From contig JAEPNP010000005.1 of assembly GCA_017643395.1 (NCBI GenBank), positions 1-64,000 on the forward strand: a stretch of 64,000 bases of DNA. Reading direction: 5' to 3'. The stretch is from Rhodothermales bacterium. Its GTDB lineage: Bacteria; Bacteroidota; Rhodothermia; Rhodothermales; UBA10348. The notes under the pieces were generated by a model that saw only the letters and a program-made list of their open reading frames with translations, had not been told where the DNA came from and searched no databases. Each line of letters begins with the position of its first letter. The first letter of the stretch is position 1. The position numbers and the translations under genes are program-made. Positions 42,657 through 50,929 of the stretch are shown here, one piece after another.

Positions 42657-43652
42657 ATGAGCGGCGGCCCAACAAACCACCCCGCGCGCGTGACGCGATT
42701 TCTCCCCTGCATTCTGGCGTTTTTCCTGGTTCTGCCCGCTTCGGGGCAGCCCGTGGACGCGACCGTGTTCTCGCTGACCACGCTCGACGCGTCGGCTCGG
42801 GGAGCCGGGTTCGCGGGGTCGTCCTCGGCATTGCCGAGCCAGGGCGTCTTGAGCTTCCTGGAGAATCCCGCACACTTGCGGGCGGAGGCCCACGGGCAGT
42901 TGGGCCTGTCCCTGCTCAATCACGTGTCTGCGCTGCAAACGGGCACCGTCGCCTACAGCCGACATCTGGAAGGCATCGGTTCAGTGGGGGCCGGGCTCCG
43001 CTTCCTGGGCTGGGGGGAGATCGACCGCGCCGACGCTCTCGGCGAGAAGCAGGGCACGTTTTCCGCGGGAGAGTTTGCTCTTTCGGCCGGCCTGTCGCGC
43101 GTACTCAATCCCACGACCCGGTATGGTGCCAACGTGCATTGGCTGAGGAGCAGCATCGACGGTCAGGCCGCGAACGCCCTGGCCCTGGACGCCGGAATCT
43201 TCCGATACAACCCGGATTCGAGGCTGGGCCTCAGTGCCAGCATACACAGCCTCGGCGCGGTGATTTCGTCCATTGGAGAAGAATCGAACCGCCTGCCGGT
43301 TGACCTGCGCCTGGGCATCAGTAAACGACTCCTCCACCTGCCGTTCTTGTTCTCGGTGACTGCCTGGGACCTGACCGATTTCTCTGGCACCGACGACGAC
43401 GACACCGTGCTCGACAATCTCCTGTACCACCTGAAACTGGGAGGCGCCTTCCAGTTCAGCGAGCACTTCGAGATTCGGTTCGGTTACGATCACCGCCGCC
43501 ACAACGCGCTCAAGGTGAAGAGTCGACTGGACCTCGCCGGCGTGTCCTTCGGCACCGGTATTGTTGTGAAGTGGGTGGCCGTGGACTACGGCTACAACTC
43601 ATGGTCCAGCTTCGGAGGCATGCACCGTTTTGCGGTGACAACCAGGCTTTAG
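42657..43652 (+). CDS. porQ: Type IX secretion system protein PorQ-like
   Basis: 331 aa from the ATG at 42657; an ATG at 42597 would add 20 residues without signal-peptide character. The signal ends near PASGQ, and FSLTTLDASARGAGFAGSSS with FLENPAHL is the PorV/PorQ (PorP/SprF-like) barrel opening. These outer-membrane barrels take T9SS substrates as they emerge. A GH5 enzyme with a T9SS-type C-terminal domain is encoded at 48917. Its stop overlaps that of the convergent recombinase gene. Confidence 0.8.
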   Translation: MSGGPTNHPARVTRFLPCILAFFLVLPASGQPVDATVFSLTTLDASARGAGFAGSSSALPSQGVLSFLENPAHLRAEAHGQLGLSLLNHVSALQTGTVAYSRHLEGIGSVGAGLRFLGWGEIDRADALGEKQGTFSAGEFALSAGLSRVLNPTTRYGANVHWLRSSIDGQAANALALDAGIFRYNPDSRLGLSASIHSLGAVISSIGEESNRLPVDLRLGISKRLLHLPFLFSVTAWDLTDFSGTDDDDTVLDNLLYHLKLGGAFQFSEHFEIRFGYDHRRHNALKVKSRLDLAGVSFGTGIVVKWVAVDYGYNSWSSFGGMHRFAVTTRL

Positions 43653-44596
43653 GCAGGTTTCTCGGCTGACCCCGTGAGCAACCCCTGCTGGCGGTAGTAG
43701 ATCATGGTGGTATCGAGAGTGCCGTGGCGCATGCGCTCTTTCACCTCGTCGATGTCCATGCCGTCATTCAGCCAGATTAGCGCCGCGGTATGAGTCAGGC
43801 TGTGGGGGGTGATGCCGGGCTTCTTGACTCCCGACTCCTTCAACAGCTCGTTGATGCGACTGCGGATCGATCGGGTATTGAGTCGATCCCCCTGACTGCG
43901 GTGCCCGTGGCTCACAAATAACGGCATCTCCGGACGAATGCGGCCCCGGGCATCCAGATACAGCCGGATGGCGTCCATCACTGGGGGGTCGATGGGCACA
44001 TGCTGGTCTTTGGCCGTGCGGCCCTTGCCCTGCACCCGCAGATACCAGCCCATGAGTGTCTGCTCCAGATCCTGAACGTCGGCGCGCACGATCTCGATCT
44101 CGGAGAGCCCTGCAAAGAGCATGGAGAAGACGATCGCCCGATCCCGGCGAGCAATCTCATCGTCAGTGGATAGCACGGTCAGCAGCGTATCTACCTCCTC
44201 TTGCGTCAGCACCTTGCGCGAGTGCGTGGCAGGACGTCGGTTGCCCTTCACGCCTTGCGCAGGGTTCTCACTGAGCAGCCCCACATCGACCAAGTACTGA
44301 CAGAAGCGCCGGACGGCTGTCAGGTAGGTGGAGACAGAAACCTGATGCAGCTCCCGCTCCTCCATCAGGTAGGTCTTGTACGCCTCTACGTCGTCCTGTC
44401 GAAAGCGAAATCGACCTTTCTCACGCACGAACCAGCGCTCGAATTCGTTCAGGGACCGTCGGTAGGTACCTACCGTTTCCGGGCTGCGATCCTTCAGGTA
44501 CTCACGCAGGAAGTCCTGTACGCGAAGGCGCAGTTCCGGTAGAGAAAGGCTGAGTCCAAGGGCCTCTTCCAGGGAGGACGATTGTTCTGTTGCCAC
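43649..44596 (-). CDS. Tyrosine recombinase-like protein lacking both catalytic arginines
   Basis: 315 aa with a GTG start. An N-terminal SAM-like core-binding domain (about 20-110, VQDFLREYLKDRSPETVGTY) and a C-terminal phage-integrase fold. Box I reads FAGLSEIEIVRADV where active enzymes have GLRxxEL, and box II reads HSLTHTAALIWL where active enzymes have HxLRHT. Lys (QGKGRTAK), both His and the Tyr (MIYYRQQ) are kept. It may be inactive, regulatory or use other residues. It is not flanked by phage or IS genes; a repetitive GC-rich spacer lies directly upstream. Confidence 0.8.
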   Translation of the reverse strand: MATEQSSSLEEALGLSLSLPELRLRVQDFLREYLKDRSPETVGTYRRSLNEFERWFVREKGRFRFRQDDVEAYKTYLMEERELHQVSVSTYLTAVRRFCQYLVDVGLLSENPAQGVKGNRRPATHSRKVLTQEEVDTLLTVLSTDDEIARRDRAIVFSMLFAGLSEIEIVRADVQDLEQTLMGWYLRVQGKGRTAKDQHVPIDPPVMDAIRLYLDARGRIRPEMPLFVSHGHRSQGDRLNTRSIRSRINELLKESGVKKPGITPHSLTHTAALIWLNDGMDIDEVKERMRHGTLDTTMIYYRQQGLLTGSAEKPA

Positions 44597-45257
44597 GGGC
44601 GTTCTGGTGTGCTGACGGCATGGCGCATAACGGACCTGCGCCTCACACCCCCAAAAAAGCGGCGGTGACGGCGATTGTCAATAACGGTTGTAGGAAAGGA
44701 GGGGTGGTGCTTGGCCTCGGGCCCTGGAGGCGGGCTCGGCGGCGCTCGGGCCCGCGGCGGGGCGGCGCTCGGCGGAGGCGGCGCTCGGACCCGCGGTGGC
44801 GGGGCGGCCCCCGGCCCCGGCGAAGGCAGCCCACCCCTCGCCACACCGGGCCGCCAGGTGGAATACGGCGGCCATAGTCCACCTATCATCCGTTTCCAAC
44901 GGGCCACATGTGGAGTCAGCCTCGATATTCCATGTCTGGCGCTCTCAGGGCGCCCGAAGATGGAATGGCGGTCGGCTATTCCACGTTTGGGGCCGCGAGG
45001 GTAAGAAGCGCCGGCCCGCGGAGCCGCCCCGGCACGCCCGTCGAAGCGCCGGCCCGCGGAGCCGCCCCGGCACGCCCGTCGAAGCGCCGGCCCGCAGAGC
45101 CGCCCCGGCACGCCCGTCGAAGCGCCGGCCCGGGGAGCCGCAGCGCGGAGCCGGCCCGACTCGCCACCTCGCAGCCCCCCCCCACCCCTCACTCGACCAG
45201 CGGCGCATCCTGCCGTCCCGCGCCCCGTACGGACACGCACCCTCAGCCCCCCAGCCC
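44597..45257. repeat. GC-rich repetitive intergenic spacer (middle island)
   Basis: 661 bp without a supportable gene. The first part is purine/GC-rich low-complexity sequence (44690-44840). It then carries several TGGAA/TTCCA inverted repeats: GTGGAATA with TAGTCCAC (44858-44882), CCACATGTGG (44904-44913) and a perfect TGGAAT/ATTCCA pair (44961-44983). A 38-bp tandem array follows at 45005-45140. Long frames across it are GC artefacts. The pattern is shared with the spacers at 1-388 and 62724-63547. Confidence 0.65.
45005..45140. repeat. 38-bp tandem repeat, about 3.5 copies
   Basis: Copies start at 45005, 45043, 45081 and (partial) 45119, each opening with GAAGCGCCGGCCCGC and differing by only one or two bases. 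The 38-bp period is not a multiple of three, so it does not encode a uniform peptide repeat, which supports a non-coding nature. Confidence 0.9.
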
Positions 45258-45785: not shown

Positions 45786-46313
45786 TCAGGCTTCAATCAG
45801 TCCCCCCAACTCTGCGAGTTCGGCCTCGCTGAGGTCCAGGTTGAAGTGCCGGATGCGCTCGATGGCCGTATCGGTTGTATCGGCGTAGGCCTCCACACAA
45901 CCAGCATGAATGTAGCCGGCGGGATTCAGGTAGCCGTCCTCGAAAAACACTACCGAGACGCGCCAGTCGTCCTTTTCGATCAGCTCGCGGCACGCTCGAC
46001 AGGTGGCTCGCGCAGACGGCGACACGTGGGCGCGGTGCAGCCTGGCGATGCGGGGATGCGCCTCCCCGGTCGCCGCAAGCCTCCGCAGCGATTCGGCATC
46101 ATCCAACTCGCCGCCCTCGCCAAGAAACACGGTGATGGCCTCGGGCCGTTTGTAGGCCGCACAGAGCGGGTGATACCAGAAGGTGGTCTCACGATCCGCG
46201 CGCGGGTTCATCATGGTCTCCCCAAATCGGATCTCACCCTTCCCGATGAGCCGTTCGCAGCCTCGACACTTGGCGCGTCCGGATGAAGCCGTTTCGGTGT
46301 GATACGTCGCCAT
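45786..46313 (-). CDS. Protein with two PARP-type zinc fingers
   Basis: 175 aa. Two copies of a C-x2-C-x27/28-H-x2-C zinc site: Cys16, Cys19, His48, Cys51 and Cys105, Cys108, His136, Cys139. Around them, AKCRGCERLIGKGEIRFG...WYHPLC and ATCRACRELIEKDDWRV...YIHAGC follow the PARP1/DNA ligase III zinc-finger pattern, which in eukaryotes recognises DNA breaks. No catalytic domain is attached; a short acidic helix ends the protein. It begins 3 bp after the stop of the MutS-like ATPase gene on the same strand, so the pair is surely co-transcribed. DNA-end or nick sensing is inferred only from the fold. Confidence 0.8.
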   Translation of the reverse strand: MATYHTETASSGRAKCRGCERLIGKGEIRFGETMMNPRADRETTFWYHPLCAAYKRPEAITVFLGEGGELDDAESLRRLAATGEAHPRIARLHRAHVSPSARATCRACRELIEKDDWRVSVVFFEDGYLNPAGYIHAGCVEAYADTTDTAIERIRHFNLDLSEAELAELGGLIEA

Positions 46314-46316
46314 GCC

Positions 46317-48110
46317 TCAATCTACCACGGGAAGACCCTCCATCGCCATGATCTTGAGCGCGTTCGTCGTGGGACACGGGCCAGTTCGAAGCAGGTAGTC
46401 GAACACCATGCGGCCGCCCGACACGTCCTCGCGAAAGTGCAGGTTGCGTGCCGAGGGGTGCTGCTCGGTCAGGCGCACAAGATCAAGGTCGTGGGTGGCG
46501 ACCAGGCCCAGCGCACCGCGGCGAATCACTTCCTCAATCAAGGCCCTGCTGCCAAGCAGACGCTCTCTGTTGTTTGTGCCACGGAAGATCTCGTCGATGA
46601 GCACCAGCACTCTTCCTGGCTCGGCCCCTCGGACGGCCTCCATCAGCCGGGCCAGCCGACGCACCTCGGCGTAGAAAAACGAGATGCCGTCGGTGACCGA
46701 ATCCGTCACACCCATACTCGTGAAGACGCGCAGGTCGGACAGGCGCAGCGAGAGCGCATCGACCGGACCCCCGGCACGGGCCATCACAACGGCAAGACCC
46801 ACCGAACGCAGATAGGTGCTCTTGCCGGACATGTTGGAGCCGGTGACGATGGCCAGCGTGCCAGGGTCAGTCAGCTCAAGGTCGTTCCGAACGAGATCCT
46901 CCCTGGGCACCAGCGGATGGCCAAGCCCTGTTGCCTCGAGTCCGGGCCCGTCCGCCAGCAGGTCCGGAAAGCTCGCATCGGGGTTGAGAGCCGCGTAGGT
47001 CGCCAGCGATCCGGCTGCCTCCAGTGTGAACACGGTCGTCAACCAGGCCGGAAGCTCCTCCCGGAGAGCATCCTTGAGGCGCTCGAGTCGGGAGGCAAAG
47101 TGCAGGTCCCAGGGCACAAGCACGTTGAACACCAGTCGCAGGATTTCGCTCTTCTGGGCACTGGCGGCCACGGCCAGCCACATCACCCGCCTGAGCTCTC
47201 GCGATGGGCGATCCCGACGAATTCCCTGAAGCAGGTTCTCCAGAGCCTGCGCCCTGGGGAATCGGCGGGATTCCAGCAACCGCAGCACGGGCCGCAGCTT
47301 CTCGAGCTCATAGTGTAGCCGCTCGGCCTCATCGAACAGGTGATTGTAGTAGCGCCCGTTCATGAGGTAGACGGCAGCATAGACGACCAGAGAGAACGCC
47401 CAAAGTGGACCGGTCAGTCCGGCGATGTGCAGTGCAACGAGGAGCACGTTGACGGCAGCCAGTGCCCACAGAACGGCCAGAATGCGCCGCATCATCCGCG
47501 CGTCGGGGCTGGCTCCAAGCCAGCTCAAGAGAACGTCGCCGTCAAAGCGCCTGGCGGACGGTCCGCTGAAGACGGTCGATTCCAGGGCAATACGGTCACA
47601 GAACGCAGGTCGCGGCACCAGATCGCGGACCAAAAGCTGACGATCCGCCGCCGGGCCGCTGCCGGTCTCCAGCAGCCAGGAGGCGAGCTTGCGCGCGCCG
47701 CCCGTTGAGAAGGACGTGTCCAGCAGTCTGTGCAGTCCCCGAGCACCCATTATGTCGAGGTCGGCCGAAAACGCGTGAGTCTCCCCCGCATCAACGCCAA
47801 ACGCAGGCGGAAGCGCCTCCCAGTCCCGAGCCCGGCGGGCAATCCTCATCGCCTTGATGCGGCGAAGCGTTGCGGTTCGCAGGATGCCACGAGCCAGTTC
47901 CTCATGCACACGCACCACGGCCAGAAATACCACGAGGCCGAGGACGGCAGGAGCCCATCGCCCGTCTGTTTCCCACCAAAGAATGGTGCCCAGTGCCGAG
48001 ACTGAAAAAATGCCTACACGCAGCCAGGACAGCCGCTTGCTGCGGGCCTCCAGCCGTTCGCTGCGGCGGTCGAGGCGTGCGAGGAATCGTTGGAGATGGA
48101 CGTCCGTCAT
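46317..48110 (-). CDS. Membrane-anchored MutS-family ATPase
   Basis: 597 aa. The C-terminal third is a MutS-type ATPase with Walker A TGSNMSGKST (about residue 425), Walker B VLVLIDEIFRGTNNRE and VATHDLDL. The N-terminus has two hydrophobic helices (about 28-65) and another pair lies at about 212-250, so it is probably membrane-bound. The mismatch-recognition domain of MutS is absent, and there is no Smr nuclease domain as in MutS2. The role is unknown; it is divergent from AMP nucleosidase (43-bp gap) and co-transcribed with the double PARP-finger protein. Confidence 0.85.
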   Translation of the reverse strand: MTDVHLQRFLARLDRRSERLEARSKRLSWLRVGIFSVSALGTILWWETDGRWAPAVLGLVVFLAVVRVHEELARGILRTATLRRIKAMRIARRARDWEALPPAFGVDAGETHAFSADLDIMGARGLHRLLDTSFSTGGARKLASWLLETGSGPAADRQLLVRDLVPRPAFCDRIALESTVFSGPSARRFDGDVLLSWLGASPDARMMRRILAVLWALAAVNVLLVALHIAGLTGPLWAFSLVVYAAVYLMNGRYYNHLFDEAERLHYELEKLRPVLRLLESRRFPRAQALENLLQGIRRDRPSRELRRVMWLAVAASAQKSEILRLVFNVLVPWDLHFASRLERLKDALREELPAWLTTVFTLEAAGSLATYAALNPDASFPDLLADGPGLEATGLGHPLVPREDLVRNDLELTDPGTLAIVTGSNMSGKSTYLRSVGLAVVMARAGGPVDALSLRLSDLRVFTSMGVTDSVTDGISFFYAEVRRLARLMEAVRGAEPGRVLVLIDEIFRGTNNRERLLGSRALIEEVIRRGALGLVATHDLDLVRLTEQHPSARNLHFREDVSGGRMVFDYLLRTGPCPTTNALKIMAMEGLPVVD

Positions 48111-48153: not shown

Positions 48154-48927
48154 ATGAAAGAACGACTTGAGATTGCCCGGGACTGGCTACCTCGCTACAC
48201 GGGCATGCCGATCGATGAGTTCGGCGACTACGTGCTGCTGACGAATTTCCACAACTATGTGGAGATGTTCGCCGAGAAGTTCGGCTGCAACGTTTACGGT
48301 CGAGGTCGACCGATGCAGGCCGCTACGAACAACGACGGCCTGTCCATCATCAACTTCGGCATCGGCTCCCCGAACGCGGCGACCGTCATGGACCTCCTTG
48401 CAGCCAGAGAGCCGGAGGGCGTGCTCTTTCTGGGCAAGTGCGGTGGCCTGAAGCACTCCACGGAGATCGGGCACTTCATTCTGCCCATCGCGGCCATCCG
48501 CGGCGAGGGCACGAGTGACGACTACATGCTGCCGCAGGTGCCTGCGCTGCCGTCCTTCAAACTGCACAAATTTGTCTCCGAAAAGATTGTCTCGCGCAAT
48601 CTGGAGTACCGCACCGGAGTGGTCTACACCACCAATCGCAGGCTCTGGGAGCACGATGAGCTGTTCCTTGAGAAGCTGAAGGTGATGCGCACGCTGGCGA
48701 TCGACATGGAGACGGCGACCATCTTCGTGGTGGGGCACCACAACAACATCAGCCGCGGCGCGCTGCTTCTGGTCTCGGACGTGCCGATCACACCCGAGGG
48801 GGTGAAGACCGAAAAATCAGACGCCGAGGTGACTGCCATGTGGGCCCAGGTGCACCTGGATATCGGCATCGAGTCCATGTCGGACATCGATCACATGGGC
48901 GAGCAGATCAAGCACTTCACCTATTGA
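48154..48927 (+). CDS. amn: AMP nucleosidase
   Basis: 257 aa, the short form found in Bacteroidota, lacking the long N-terminal domain of E. coli Amn. It has the nucleoside phosphorylase/nucleosidase fold with INFGIGSPNAATVMDLLA, FLGKCGGLKHSTEIGHFILP and the catalytic-region IDMETATIF. It splits AMP to adenine and ribose 5-phosphate. Its last 11 bp overlap the end of the convergent GH5 gene. Confidence 0.9.
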   Translation: MKERLEIARDWLPRYTGMPIDEFGDYVLLTNFHNYVEMFAEKFGCNVYGRGRPMQAATNNDGLSIINFGIGSPNAATVMDLLAAREPEGVLFLGKCGGLKHSTEIGHFILPIAAIRGEGTSDDYMLPQVPALPSFKLHKFVSEKIVSRNLEYRTGVVYTTNRRLWEHDELFLEKLKVMRTLAIDMETATIFVVGHHNNISRGALLLVSDVPITPEGVKTEKSDAEVTAMWAQVHLDIGIESMSDIDHMGEQIKHFTY

Positions 48928-50893
48928 TGAACGTGCGGCTCCACGTGCGTTCGCCCTGGATGACACGCAGCAGATAGGCACCCGGTGGCAGGTCGTTTGA
49001 CACGATGTCGAGCCGGTTTTCGCCCACCACCGGTGTGGTTGTTGATCGCCGCACGCGGCGCCCGAGCATGTCCAGGATCTCCATGACGATGGGGTCCGAG
49101 CCGGCGGAGACAAACGTGGCTGCCGCCGAGCCGGAGACCGGATTCGGGAAAACCGGTCTCAGTTCCGCGATCTCCGGAGGCATTTCGCCGGTCACGGACG
49201 TGCCGCCGGCAAACCGAAAGGTCATGCGGTTGACGTTGTAACCGCCTGTACGGCCCACCGTCATGCGGAGAACTCCTGTCCCCTTCTCCAGCGCAACACC
49301 GGGTATGGTGACGGTGCGCCAGTTCTGCCAGCCACCGGTGCCCGGCATGGTCAACGAGCCGAGACGCTCGCCGTCCAGATAGAGGATCATGCTTCCGCCG
49401 CTGGACAGGCTGGCGATGCGCACATCGATGTCATAGACCGACGTGCTGTCGACGGTTACAGAGAACTCAAGCCACTCGAGAGGTTCGATCCAGCCGACGT
49501 TGAAAGGCCCGCCCAAGGGGTCCGTTGACGGCTCGATGTCCACACCGTCATTGCGCAAATAGGTACCGTTGTTTCCGCCGCCGGGCGAGCCGGATATCGC
49601 GGCGATTCCGGTATCCCGGTAGGTCACGCCAGCATTGCCCAAATCATAGTCCACGGCATCGATCGAGCCCGGAATCCGGTGATCGGCCATGGGCTGGCGC
49701 ATGGTGCCGAACTCCGGGTTGAACAGAGAGGCCATGACCCCCTGATTCACGCGCGTAGAATCCAGATCGAGGTTGGCCACCATCTCGAACAAGGCCGCGT
49801 GGGCCGCCTGCGGAGAGGGTCTTGCGGCCTGTCCATTCCAGTAGTCCACCAGCCGCTGGAAGCCTTCCGGCATCGGCGCCGACACCGGCGATGTGGTGCT
49901 ACGCAGTTTCTTGTGGGTCCAGAAATTCCATCCGATGTCGTTGTCCGCCATCAGCTTGACCATATCGTAGAACCAGGGATTCGAGTTCTCCCCCGTCTCC
50001 CCCAGCCACAGCGGCCGCTGATAGGTCTCCCGGATGTCTATCAGATAGTTGATGGTGCCCTGCGTGGCCGGATTCCAGTACTTGTGGAAGGCGTACACCA
50101 TCTGGTCGTCCCACGGCGGATAGAGCTTGTCGAACGTGGTGGCGAAGTAGTTGCCCTCTATGAACAGAATGTGGTTCGTGTCATGGGCGCGGATGGCGGA
50201 GGTGATGCGCTCGTAAAGGTCACGCAAGGCCTGAGCGCCGTCCGGAATCGAATTCGGAGTGACCGGCTCGTTGATCAGGTCATATCCGATGATGCGGGTG
50301 TCGTCCTTGTAGCGCCGCGCAAACTCTTCCCAGAGGGCGACGGTCAGGTCCTGGTACGGATCCGGTTCGGTCCACAGGCGGGCCACCCCGTCGCTGTCTG
50401 CAATGGCGCCGTCCGACTGGGCGCCTGGCGCGGCGTGCAGGTCGAGAATGACCGGGATGTCATAGGTCTCGCACCACCCGAGGAAGGTGTCGAGGATTGT
50501 GAACCCCTCCTCCAGGAAATTGCCCTGAAGGTCCATAAAGAACTCATAGTGGAACGGAAGGCGAATGTGGTCAAACCCCCAGTCCTTGATGGCTGCAACG
50601 TCCTTCTCAGCAAGGAACTCCGCTCGGTACGCCTCCCAGAGTCGCTCTCCCTCCGCAGCACCGATCAGCTCCTCGACCTTTTCCTGCATCTCCGTCCAGG
50701 AGCCACCCATGTGCATCATGTAGCCCTCTGGCATGAGCCACCCGCCCACCCCGACGCCCTTGATCATGGAGGGCTGACCGTCGGGACCGAGGATTCGGGT
50801 GCCCTCCACGCGGTGGAACTGGGCGCTGGTCGCGGTGGCCGTCAGGAAGATGAGCGCCAGAAAACCTGAAAACCTTTTCAAACAGCGGGCCAT
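48917..50893 (-). CDS. GH5 endoglucanase-like enzyme with CBM6 and T9SS sorting domain
   Basis: 658 aa from the ATG at 50893 (an ATG at 50914 is also possible). Signal peptide ends near TSAQF. GH5 catalytic domain about 30-390 with acid/base Glu 209 in DLINEP and nucleophile Glu 299 in WLGETGEN. A CBM6-like carbohydrate-binding module follows (about 410-560: YDLGNAGVTYRDTG, WLEFSVTVDSTSVYDIDVRI). The last about 80 residues (FPNPVSGSAAATFVS, ILDMLGRRV, GAYLLRVIQG) form a T9SS-type C-terminal signal. It should cut beta-glucan or related polymers outside the cell. It is 36 bp behind the E2 gene. Confidence 0.88.
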   Translation of the reverse strand: MARCLKRFSGFLALIFLTATATSAQFHRVEGTRILGPDGQPSMIKGVGVGGWLMPEGYMMHMGGSWTEMQEKVEELIGAAEGERLWEAYRAEFLAEKDVAAIKDWGFDHIRLPFHYEFFMDLQGNFLEEGFTILDTFLGWCETYDIPVILDLHAAPGAQSDGAIADSDGVARLWTEPDPYQDLTVALWEEFARRYKDDTRIIGYDLINEPVTPNSIPDGAQALRDLYERITSAIRAHDTNHILFIEGNYFATTFDKLYPPWDDQMVYAFHKYWNPATQGTINYLIDIRETYQRPLWLGETGENSNPWFYDMVKLMADNDIGWNFWTHKKLRSTTSPVSAPMPEGFQRLVDYWNGQAARPSPQAAHAALFEMVANLDLDSTRVNQGVMASLFNPEFGTMRQPMADHRIPGSIDAVDYDLGNAGVTYRDTGIAAISGSPGGGNNGTYLRNDGVDIEPSTDPLGGPFNVGWIEPLEWLEFSVTVDSTSVYDIDVRIASLSSGGSMILYLDGERLGSLTMPGTGGWQNWRTVTIPGVALEKGTGVLRMTVGRTGGYNVNRMTFRFAGGTSVTGEMPPEIAELRPVFPNPVSGSAAATFVSAGSDPIVMEILDMLGRRVRRSTTTPVVGENRLDIVSNDLPPGAYLLRVIQGERTWSRTFINR

Positions 50894-50929
50894 AATGGTT
50901 CCTTGGTGCTTCATACAGGACGGGCGCGC

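Follow-up and report, generated by a model that had tools for sequence, protein, structure and literature searches.

The region under study lies in a window of 64,000 nucleotides (the whole stretch of DNA that was analysed), comprising the first 64,000 positions of contig JAEPNP010000005.1 of a Rhodothermales bacterium (GenBank assembly GCA_017643395.1). In this window, a gene encoding a protein of 175 amino acid (aa) residues with two zinc fingers of the PARP type, referred to below as the finger protein, directly follows a gene for a 597-aa MutS-like ATPase. An earlier reading made from the letters alone (the sequence-only reading) had proposed that the two products constitute a DNA-damage or DNA-end sensing pair at the membrane. 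In the current study the finger protein was analysed with respect to its fold, its distribution and its genomic associations, and the same was done for its neighbour. The genes and their parts are as follows.

45786..46313, minus strand: tandem PARP-type zinc-finger protein, 175 aa, ATG start (PF00645, phmmer, AlphaFold2 and fold searches)
46083..46295, minus strand: finger 1, residues 7-77, with C16, C19, H48 and C51 (PF00645, 50 bits)
45882..46025, minus strand: finger 2, with C105, C108, H136 and C139 (PF00645, 27.9 bits, E=1.5e-5)
46317..48110, minus strand: MutS-like ATPase with membrane-type segments, 597 aa, upstream neighbour of the finger gene (functional partnership not supported)
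46329..46850, minus strand: ATPase part (MutS domain V) of the 597-aa protein, residues 421-594 (PF00488, 99.8 bits)
47361..47495, minus strand: strongly hydrophobic segment of the MutS-like protein, residues 206-250 (Kyte-Doolittle)
47892..47963, minus strand: hydrophobic segment of the MutS-like protein, residues 50-73 (Kyte-Doolittle)

Three bases (GGC) separate the stop codon of the MutS-like gene from the ATG of the finger gene, and co-transcription of the two is plausible from their common strand and their spacing.

Profile, predicted fold and conserved residues of the finger protein

Inspection of the open reading frame (ORF) and its motifs bore out the two complete zinc-ligand sites described by the sequence-only reading, namely C16-x2-C19-x28-H48-x2-C51 and C105-x2-C108-x27-H136-x2-C139. 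The zf-PARP profile (PF00645), with which that reading had suggested a search, was matched by the 175-aa protein in two stretches at 75.6 bits (hmmscan, E=5.2e-21; cut-off 39.3); when the fingers were scored singly, the first exceeded the cut-off while the second remained below it. PARP-type fingers were the only PARP domain detected in a Pfam scan of the protein, with no PARP catalytic domain, and matches to DUF7576 (21.2 bits, cut-off 27) and ECs_2282 (17 bits, cut-off 37) were sub-threshold and rejected. A phmmer search of PDB sequences matched fingers 1 and 2 of PARP1 (F1F2) at E=1.9e-13, finger 1 aligning with both PARP1 fingers.

The AlphaFold2 model, built from six aligned sequences, has a mean predicted local distance difference test (pLDDT) score of 92.7 and a predicted template modelling (pTM) score of 0.85, and displays the PARP-finger fold, with the linker between the fingers modelled as helices. 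All 26 rows returned by Foldseek at E<=0.001 were PARP1 fingers or ligase III, and VIA gave a Z of 8.8 for PARP1 Zn1 (80 residues) and 6.2 for ligase III, the first row outside the family scoring 4.4. Based on the profile matches and the predicted structure, it is confirmed that the 175-aa protein carries two genuine PARP-type fingers, and the structural check proposed in the sequence-only reading thus upheld its assignment.

In the alignment with PARP1, R13 and R29 of finger 1 coincide with R18 and R34 (Zn1) as well as with R122 and R138 (Zn2), and R102 and R118 are their positional equivalents in finger 2. PARP1 R34 and R138 grip the DNA. According to an excerpt of PMC8150716, R18 (Zn1) and R122 (Zn2) contact the phosphate backbone. 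Among the 39 double-finger rows there is no variation (39/39) in the eight zinc ligands or in R13, R29 and R118, while R102 is R in 34 rows and Q in five; of these figures only those for R29 and R118 are free of selection bias, since these residues are not part of the pattern by which rows were partly chosen (R-x2-C-x2-C, H/C-x2-C), which holds the zinc ligands and thereby also biases the conservation of R13 and R102.

DNA ligase III possesses a zinc finger that helps its ligase to locate nicks. The window fingers have their fold in common with that finger (PDB 1uw0, Z 6.2), whereas the window protein is a separate polypeptide with two fingers and is not fused to a ligase. With PARP1 F1F2 (PDB 2n8a, 4av1, 3oda, 3odc and 9mi8) the window protein shares the tandem arrangement, the fold, the ligand pattern and the backbone-gripping arginines R18/R122, but it contains no further PARP domain, its linker is predicted to be helical, and F44 of PARP1 is unmatched in finger 1.

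Distribution and phylogeny

A profile constructed from six finger proteins (A1) matched 9 of 80 relatives of the window genome, these being all three of genus g1 and all six sampled genomes of f56, another family of the window's order, with no match in the remaining 71. For PF00645 itself, the window genome was the one match among 394 genomes of the window's phylum; the phylum of G437 (Polyangiaceae, locus L007) gave 18 matching genomes out of 282 (17 above the cut-off), and that of G435 (locus L005) gave 14 out of 247 (13 above the cut-off). A1 was detected in two genomes out of 244 in the order to which G436, a Pseudomonadales metagenome-assembled genome (MAG, locus L006), belongs, one of these matches being weak and partial. 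Double fingers are therefore present in Rhodothermota, Myxococcota, one Pseudomonadota MAG and the phylum of G435, and span at least three phyla. No relative of the finger was obtained by tblastn among phages and plasmids, nor was any of the 58 pattern matches in a viral collection a finger relative, and a phage or plasmid origin of the gene was rejected for want of a phage, plasmid or viral-contig relative. A PADLOC defence scan gave no match for the finger protein, and weak ATPase matches only for the MutS-like protein.

A tree of the 39 rows contains a clade of 27 rows (support 100/99) that includes the window protein and is referred to below as the window-like clade. The tree, which was built alongside the search for Ku in the relatives and before that in the phyla of G437 and G435, omits, as does the conservation count, the single-finger loci L042, L055, L056 and L058, in addition to L048 (genome G605, with two finger hits) and L057, which were missed by the pattern, and L072, a weak partial hit.

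The stand-alone double finger is the commonest architecture. Within the phylum of G437, the finger is joined to ankyrin repeats in L060, to regions that match no Pfam family in L042, L055 and L058, and to a hydrophobic segment, judged by eye, in L056. G435 possesses a second finger gene (L067, 7033-8046), located directly behind a gene for a ClpB-type AAA ATPase.

Co-occurrence with Ku

Ku (PF02735) was identified in 10 of the 80 relatives, comprising all nine that carry the finger and G235, with a partial match, i.e. 9/9 genomes with the finger versus 1/71 without (Fisher 4e-11). When the relatives were restricted to genomes of 3.6 Mb or more, a limit chosen afterwards as the size of the smallest finger genome and applied among the relatives only, Ku was present in 9/9 with the finger versus 0/29 without. 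Similarly, Ku occurs in 9 of 18 finger genomes versus 29 of 264 others in the phylum of G437 (p=1e-4), and in 11 of 14 versus 71 of 233 in the phylum of G435 (p=5e-4), although the Fisher values take no account of descent and should be treated as descriptive.

The association is concentrated in the window-like clade, where all 26 tested genomes possess Ku (27 rows, G436 being outside the test), as compared to 3 of 11 genomes of the other double-finger clades, one of these three, G435, also having a window-like copy. For the finger genomes of the phylum of G437 that stand outside the tree (G586, G596, G605, G648 and G671), the figure is one in five.

Linkage to Ku and LigD

In the window genome LigD and Ku are both encoded in locus L097, and the LigD proteins of the window genome, G394 and G422 contain polymerase, phosphoesterase and ligase domains. 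The finger gene is physically linked to both partners in three genomes: in G1080 finger gene, Ku and LigD all lie within approximately 5 kb, and in G980 and G1089 a Ku-LigD pair is situated approximately 7-11 kb from the finger gene. In the latter two genomes the start codon of the finger gene and the stop codon of a nuclease-helicase gene (RNase_H_2, AAA_11, AAA_12) overlap, and in G1098 such a gene is likewise found upstream, separated from the finger gene by a single gene. Since all four genomes fall within a single subclade of the tree, they do not represent four independent observations.

The nuclease-helicase genes, which encode a RecB-like nuclease with a superfamily 1 (SF1) helicase (RNase_H_2, AAA_11, AAA_12), are located upstream of the finger in the three genomes listed here, two of which show the stop/start overlap; the arrangement is reminiscent of Dna2.

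L088, ending 14849: RecB-like nuclease with SF1 helicase
L089, 10753-14211: RecB-like nuclease with SF1 helicase
L091, 1362-4850: RecB-like nuclease with SF1 helicase

A DUF72 gene lies between the Ku-LigD and finger genes in L089 (10034-10765), L088 (10690-11394) and L087 (10127-11536), assigned by domain scan in L089 and by blastp in L088 and L087.

In all three Ku loci of the window's order that were examined, those of the window genome, G394 and G422, the gene immediately after Ku encodes a small TPR protein (203-206 aa), and it may be regarded as a further potential accessory gene of end joining in bacteria:

L097, 7941-8552 (window genome, G000): TPR gene after Ku
L098, 6092-6703: TPR gene after Ku
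L104, 3712-4332: TPR gene after Ku

Proposed role of the finger protein

Based on the predicted fold, the zinc ligands and arginines in place, the strong co-occurrence with Ku, the linkage in three genomes and the presence of Ku and LigD in the window genome, we consider it fairly probable that the finger protein is an accessory DNA-break-binding factor of Ku/LigD non-homologous end joining that operates without ADP-ribose. We infer that the protein binds zinc and DNA, that it is specific for breaks and that it contacts Ku or LigD. It would most likely bind DNA strand breaks, be they ends, nicks or gaps, and would serve the Ku/LigD pathway by, for example, recognising the break; alternatively, it may hold or bridge the two sides of a break, or pass processed ends to LigD. 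Its task is perhaps equivalent to that of the fingers of PARP1 or ligase III. Of the sequence-only reading, a connection with the repair of DNA ends is supported, by way of Ku and LigD, neither of which that reading had named, while its notion that finger and MutS-like protein act together as a conserved unit was not sustained.

A number of observations weigh against this proposal. Relatedness inflates the p-values, and among the 80 relatives there may have been just two gains (g1 and f56); moreover, co-occurrence is not function, and Ku tracks genome size and is frequently transferred (excerpt of PMC7719229). The finger is missing from most genomes that possess Ku (29 of 38 in the phylum of G437 and 71 of 82 in that of G435) and is thus at most optional, and, since the double fingers of the other clades mostly reside in Ku-less genomes, end joining is not the role of every bacterial PARP finger. 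Linkage to Ku and LigD is seen in 3 of 26 genomes, all of one tree subclade; finger and Ku are on separate contigs in all nine finger-bearing relatives, which are draft assemblies, and in G1020 they lie on the same contig approximately 2.8 Mb apart.

The neighbourhood comparison points in the same direction, as no family was found near the finger in more than 4 of the 27 loci of the window-like clade (blastp, ORFs within 6 kb; 14 largest groups, several contigs ending near the finger). Among the matches listed, two groups of kinase-like genes, so assigned by eye, are near the finger in four loci each, and DUF72-like and nuclease-helicase genes in three loci each; MutS-like and recombinase-like genes are near it in the three g1 loci, and the neighbours in f56, again among the matches listed, were looked over by eye.

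The final point against the proposal concerns the base-stacking loop, which in PARP1 involves F44 and L161/I164 (excerpt of PMC8150716). Window finger 1 has R38, A39 and T43 at the places of M43, F44 and V48 of PARP1 Zn1, and this contact is therefore probably altered. Among the 27 members of the window-like clade, 23 carry F or Y in place of R38, and finger-2 position 129 is hydrophobic in 27/27 of that clade and 0/12 other rows, in a stretch where the alignment is gapped and uncertain.

The strongest competing explanation is that the finger protein fulfils a general role in binding nucleic acid or protein, for example as a cofactor of the nuclease-helicase or as a DNA-binding adaptor, and co-occurs with Ku only by way of large, slow-growing genomes or joint transfer. 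The dependence of Ku on genome size and its mobility would accommodate such a role, as would the intermixing, with weak support, of rows from f56 and the phylum of G435 in the tree, and the existence of bacterial PARP fingers that are fused to ankyrin repeats or other parts or that occur in Ku-less genomes. However, the contrast among relatives persists when only those of at least 3.6 Mb are considered, the link is confined to the window-like clade and weak in the other double-finger clades, a restriction not expected from genome size alone, and the Ku-LigD linkage in three genomes likewise argues against it. We regard this explanation as unlikely, if worthy of serious attention.

The MutS-like neighbour

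The coordinates, the domain match and the hydropathy profile agree with the sequence-only description of a 597-aa MutS-family ATPase with hydrophobic segments located 3 bp from the finger gene. The protein retains Walker A (GSNMSGKST) and Walker B (LVLIDE) motifs, and MutS_V is its sole Pfam match (hmmscan, E<=1), the mismatch-recognition domain I and connector domain II of MutS1 giving no match at that threshold; its scores against the NCBIfam models of MutS1 and MutS2 fall far under the cut-offs. The hydrophobic segments correspond to 19-residue Kyte-Doolittle windows above 1.6. It therefore resembles the MutS-family ATPases MutS1 and MutS2 in MutS domain V, the alignment with MutS1 covering approximately 250 C-terminal residues, but differs from them in lacking any other matched MutS domain and in possessing membrane-type segments in its N-terminal half. 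This membrane MutS-like family was not identified among the MutS subfamilies in the literature searched, the excerpted text of PMC3166940 included. An AlphaFold2 model of the protein, based on two rows, was poor (pLDDT 38) and was set aside.

A long MutS-like form, defined by strong matches that extend well past the ATPase part, was present in 22 of the 80 relatives (this and the following counts in relatives being among the matches listed), with G419 truncated by a contig end and G395, G085, G235 and G403 in two pieces; the remaining MutS matches are confined to the ATPase part and resemble ordinary MutS. In three genomes, all of genus g1 and each counted once, namely the window genome, G394 (contig L003) and G395 (contig L004), the long gene directly precedes the finger gene, with gaps of 3, 26 and 115 bp, and in G395 the MutS-like gene is divided between two contigs.

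These data permit an evaluation of the proposal of a membrane-located unit in which the finger protein and its MutS-like neighbour would jointly sense DNA damage or DNA ends. The common strand, the 3-bp gap and the preservation of the adjacency in three g1 genomes are in keeping with it. In contrast, finger and long MutS-like gene show no association among the 80 relatives, the long gene being present in 3/9 finger genomes and in 19/71 others (p=0.70), that is, in 19 relatives without a finger, and no long match was obtained in any of the six sampled finger-bearing f56 genomes. Furthermore, the gap widens to 26 and 115 bp in the other g1 genomes, the finger follows the long gene in only two (L022, the window, and L023) of 18 loci with a callable ORF (20 examined), and among 27 loci of the window-like clade a MutS-like neighbour is restricted to the three g1 loci. 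Such a unit is therefore improbable: the MutS-like neighbour is a separate, more widespread protein and the adjacency is particular to one genus, so that the conservation of the gene pair across relatives, which the sequence-only reading had offered as a test, did not materialise, and nothing was found that places the finger protein at the membrane.

A place for the finger protein within a bacterial poly(ADP-ribose) system, in which it would present breaks to a PARP enzyme, is very improbable indeed, for although the fingers are PARP1-like and PARP homologues occur sporadically in bacteria (excerpt of PMC4245714), the PARP catalytic domain (PF00644) gave no match in 27 of 29 tested finger genomes, including the window genome, g1 and six f56 genomes, and matched in the other two (13 finger genomes found later being outside the test), and for the window genome this explanation is close to refuted, barring a highly diverged transferase.

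Significance of the proposed role in bacterial end joining

Returning to the proposed accessory role in Ku/LigD end joining, the finger protein is a candidate bacterial break sensor because its gene travels with Ku and not with its MutS-like neighbour. We tentatively extend this to a bolder proposition, which we judge to fall somewhat short of probable: that the protein represents a dedicated prokaryotic break sensor of end joining, a free-standing equivalent of PARP1 F1F2 that occurs in at least three phyla and acts with Ku, LigD and, in some lineages, the nuclease-helicase. It would place a module that has been thought eukaryotic in bacteria, here without ADP-ribose, and may relate to a prokaryotic source from which eukaryotes derived their fingers.

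In published abstracts, end joining in bacteria is usually presented as a system of Ku and LigD. No recognisable description of such a bacterial PARP-finger protein was found among the open-licence papers searched, and in a term search two papers on bacterial end joining contain no mention of 'zinc' or 'PARP' (PMC7719229) and of 'zinc finger' or 'PARP' (PMC8656161). If the proposed role is correct, the finger protein would constitute a new end-joining component with a clear and testable function in nick, gap or end recognition, PARP fingers would function in bacteria outside ADP-ribosylation, and the finding would bear on the origin of the break-sensing fingers in eukaryotic PARP1 and ligase III.

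Further features of the window

Beyond the MutS-like gene, positions 48917-50914 of the window hold a gene of the GH5 cellulase family with CBM6/CBM35 matches and a Por secretion tail match that is sub-threshold (26.8 bits, cut-off 27). On the other side of the finger gene, positions 43649-44596 encode a protein of the tyrosine-recombinase family (PF00589, 73.6 bits), and a gene of this kind is near the finger gene also in L003 and L004. Between the recombinase and finger genes, a GC-rich 38-base unit is arranged in a tandem array of 3.6 copies (96%) at positions 45005-45141.

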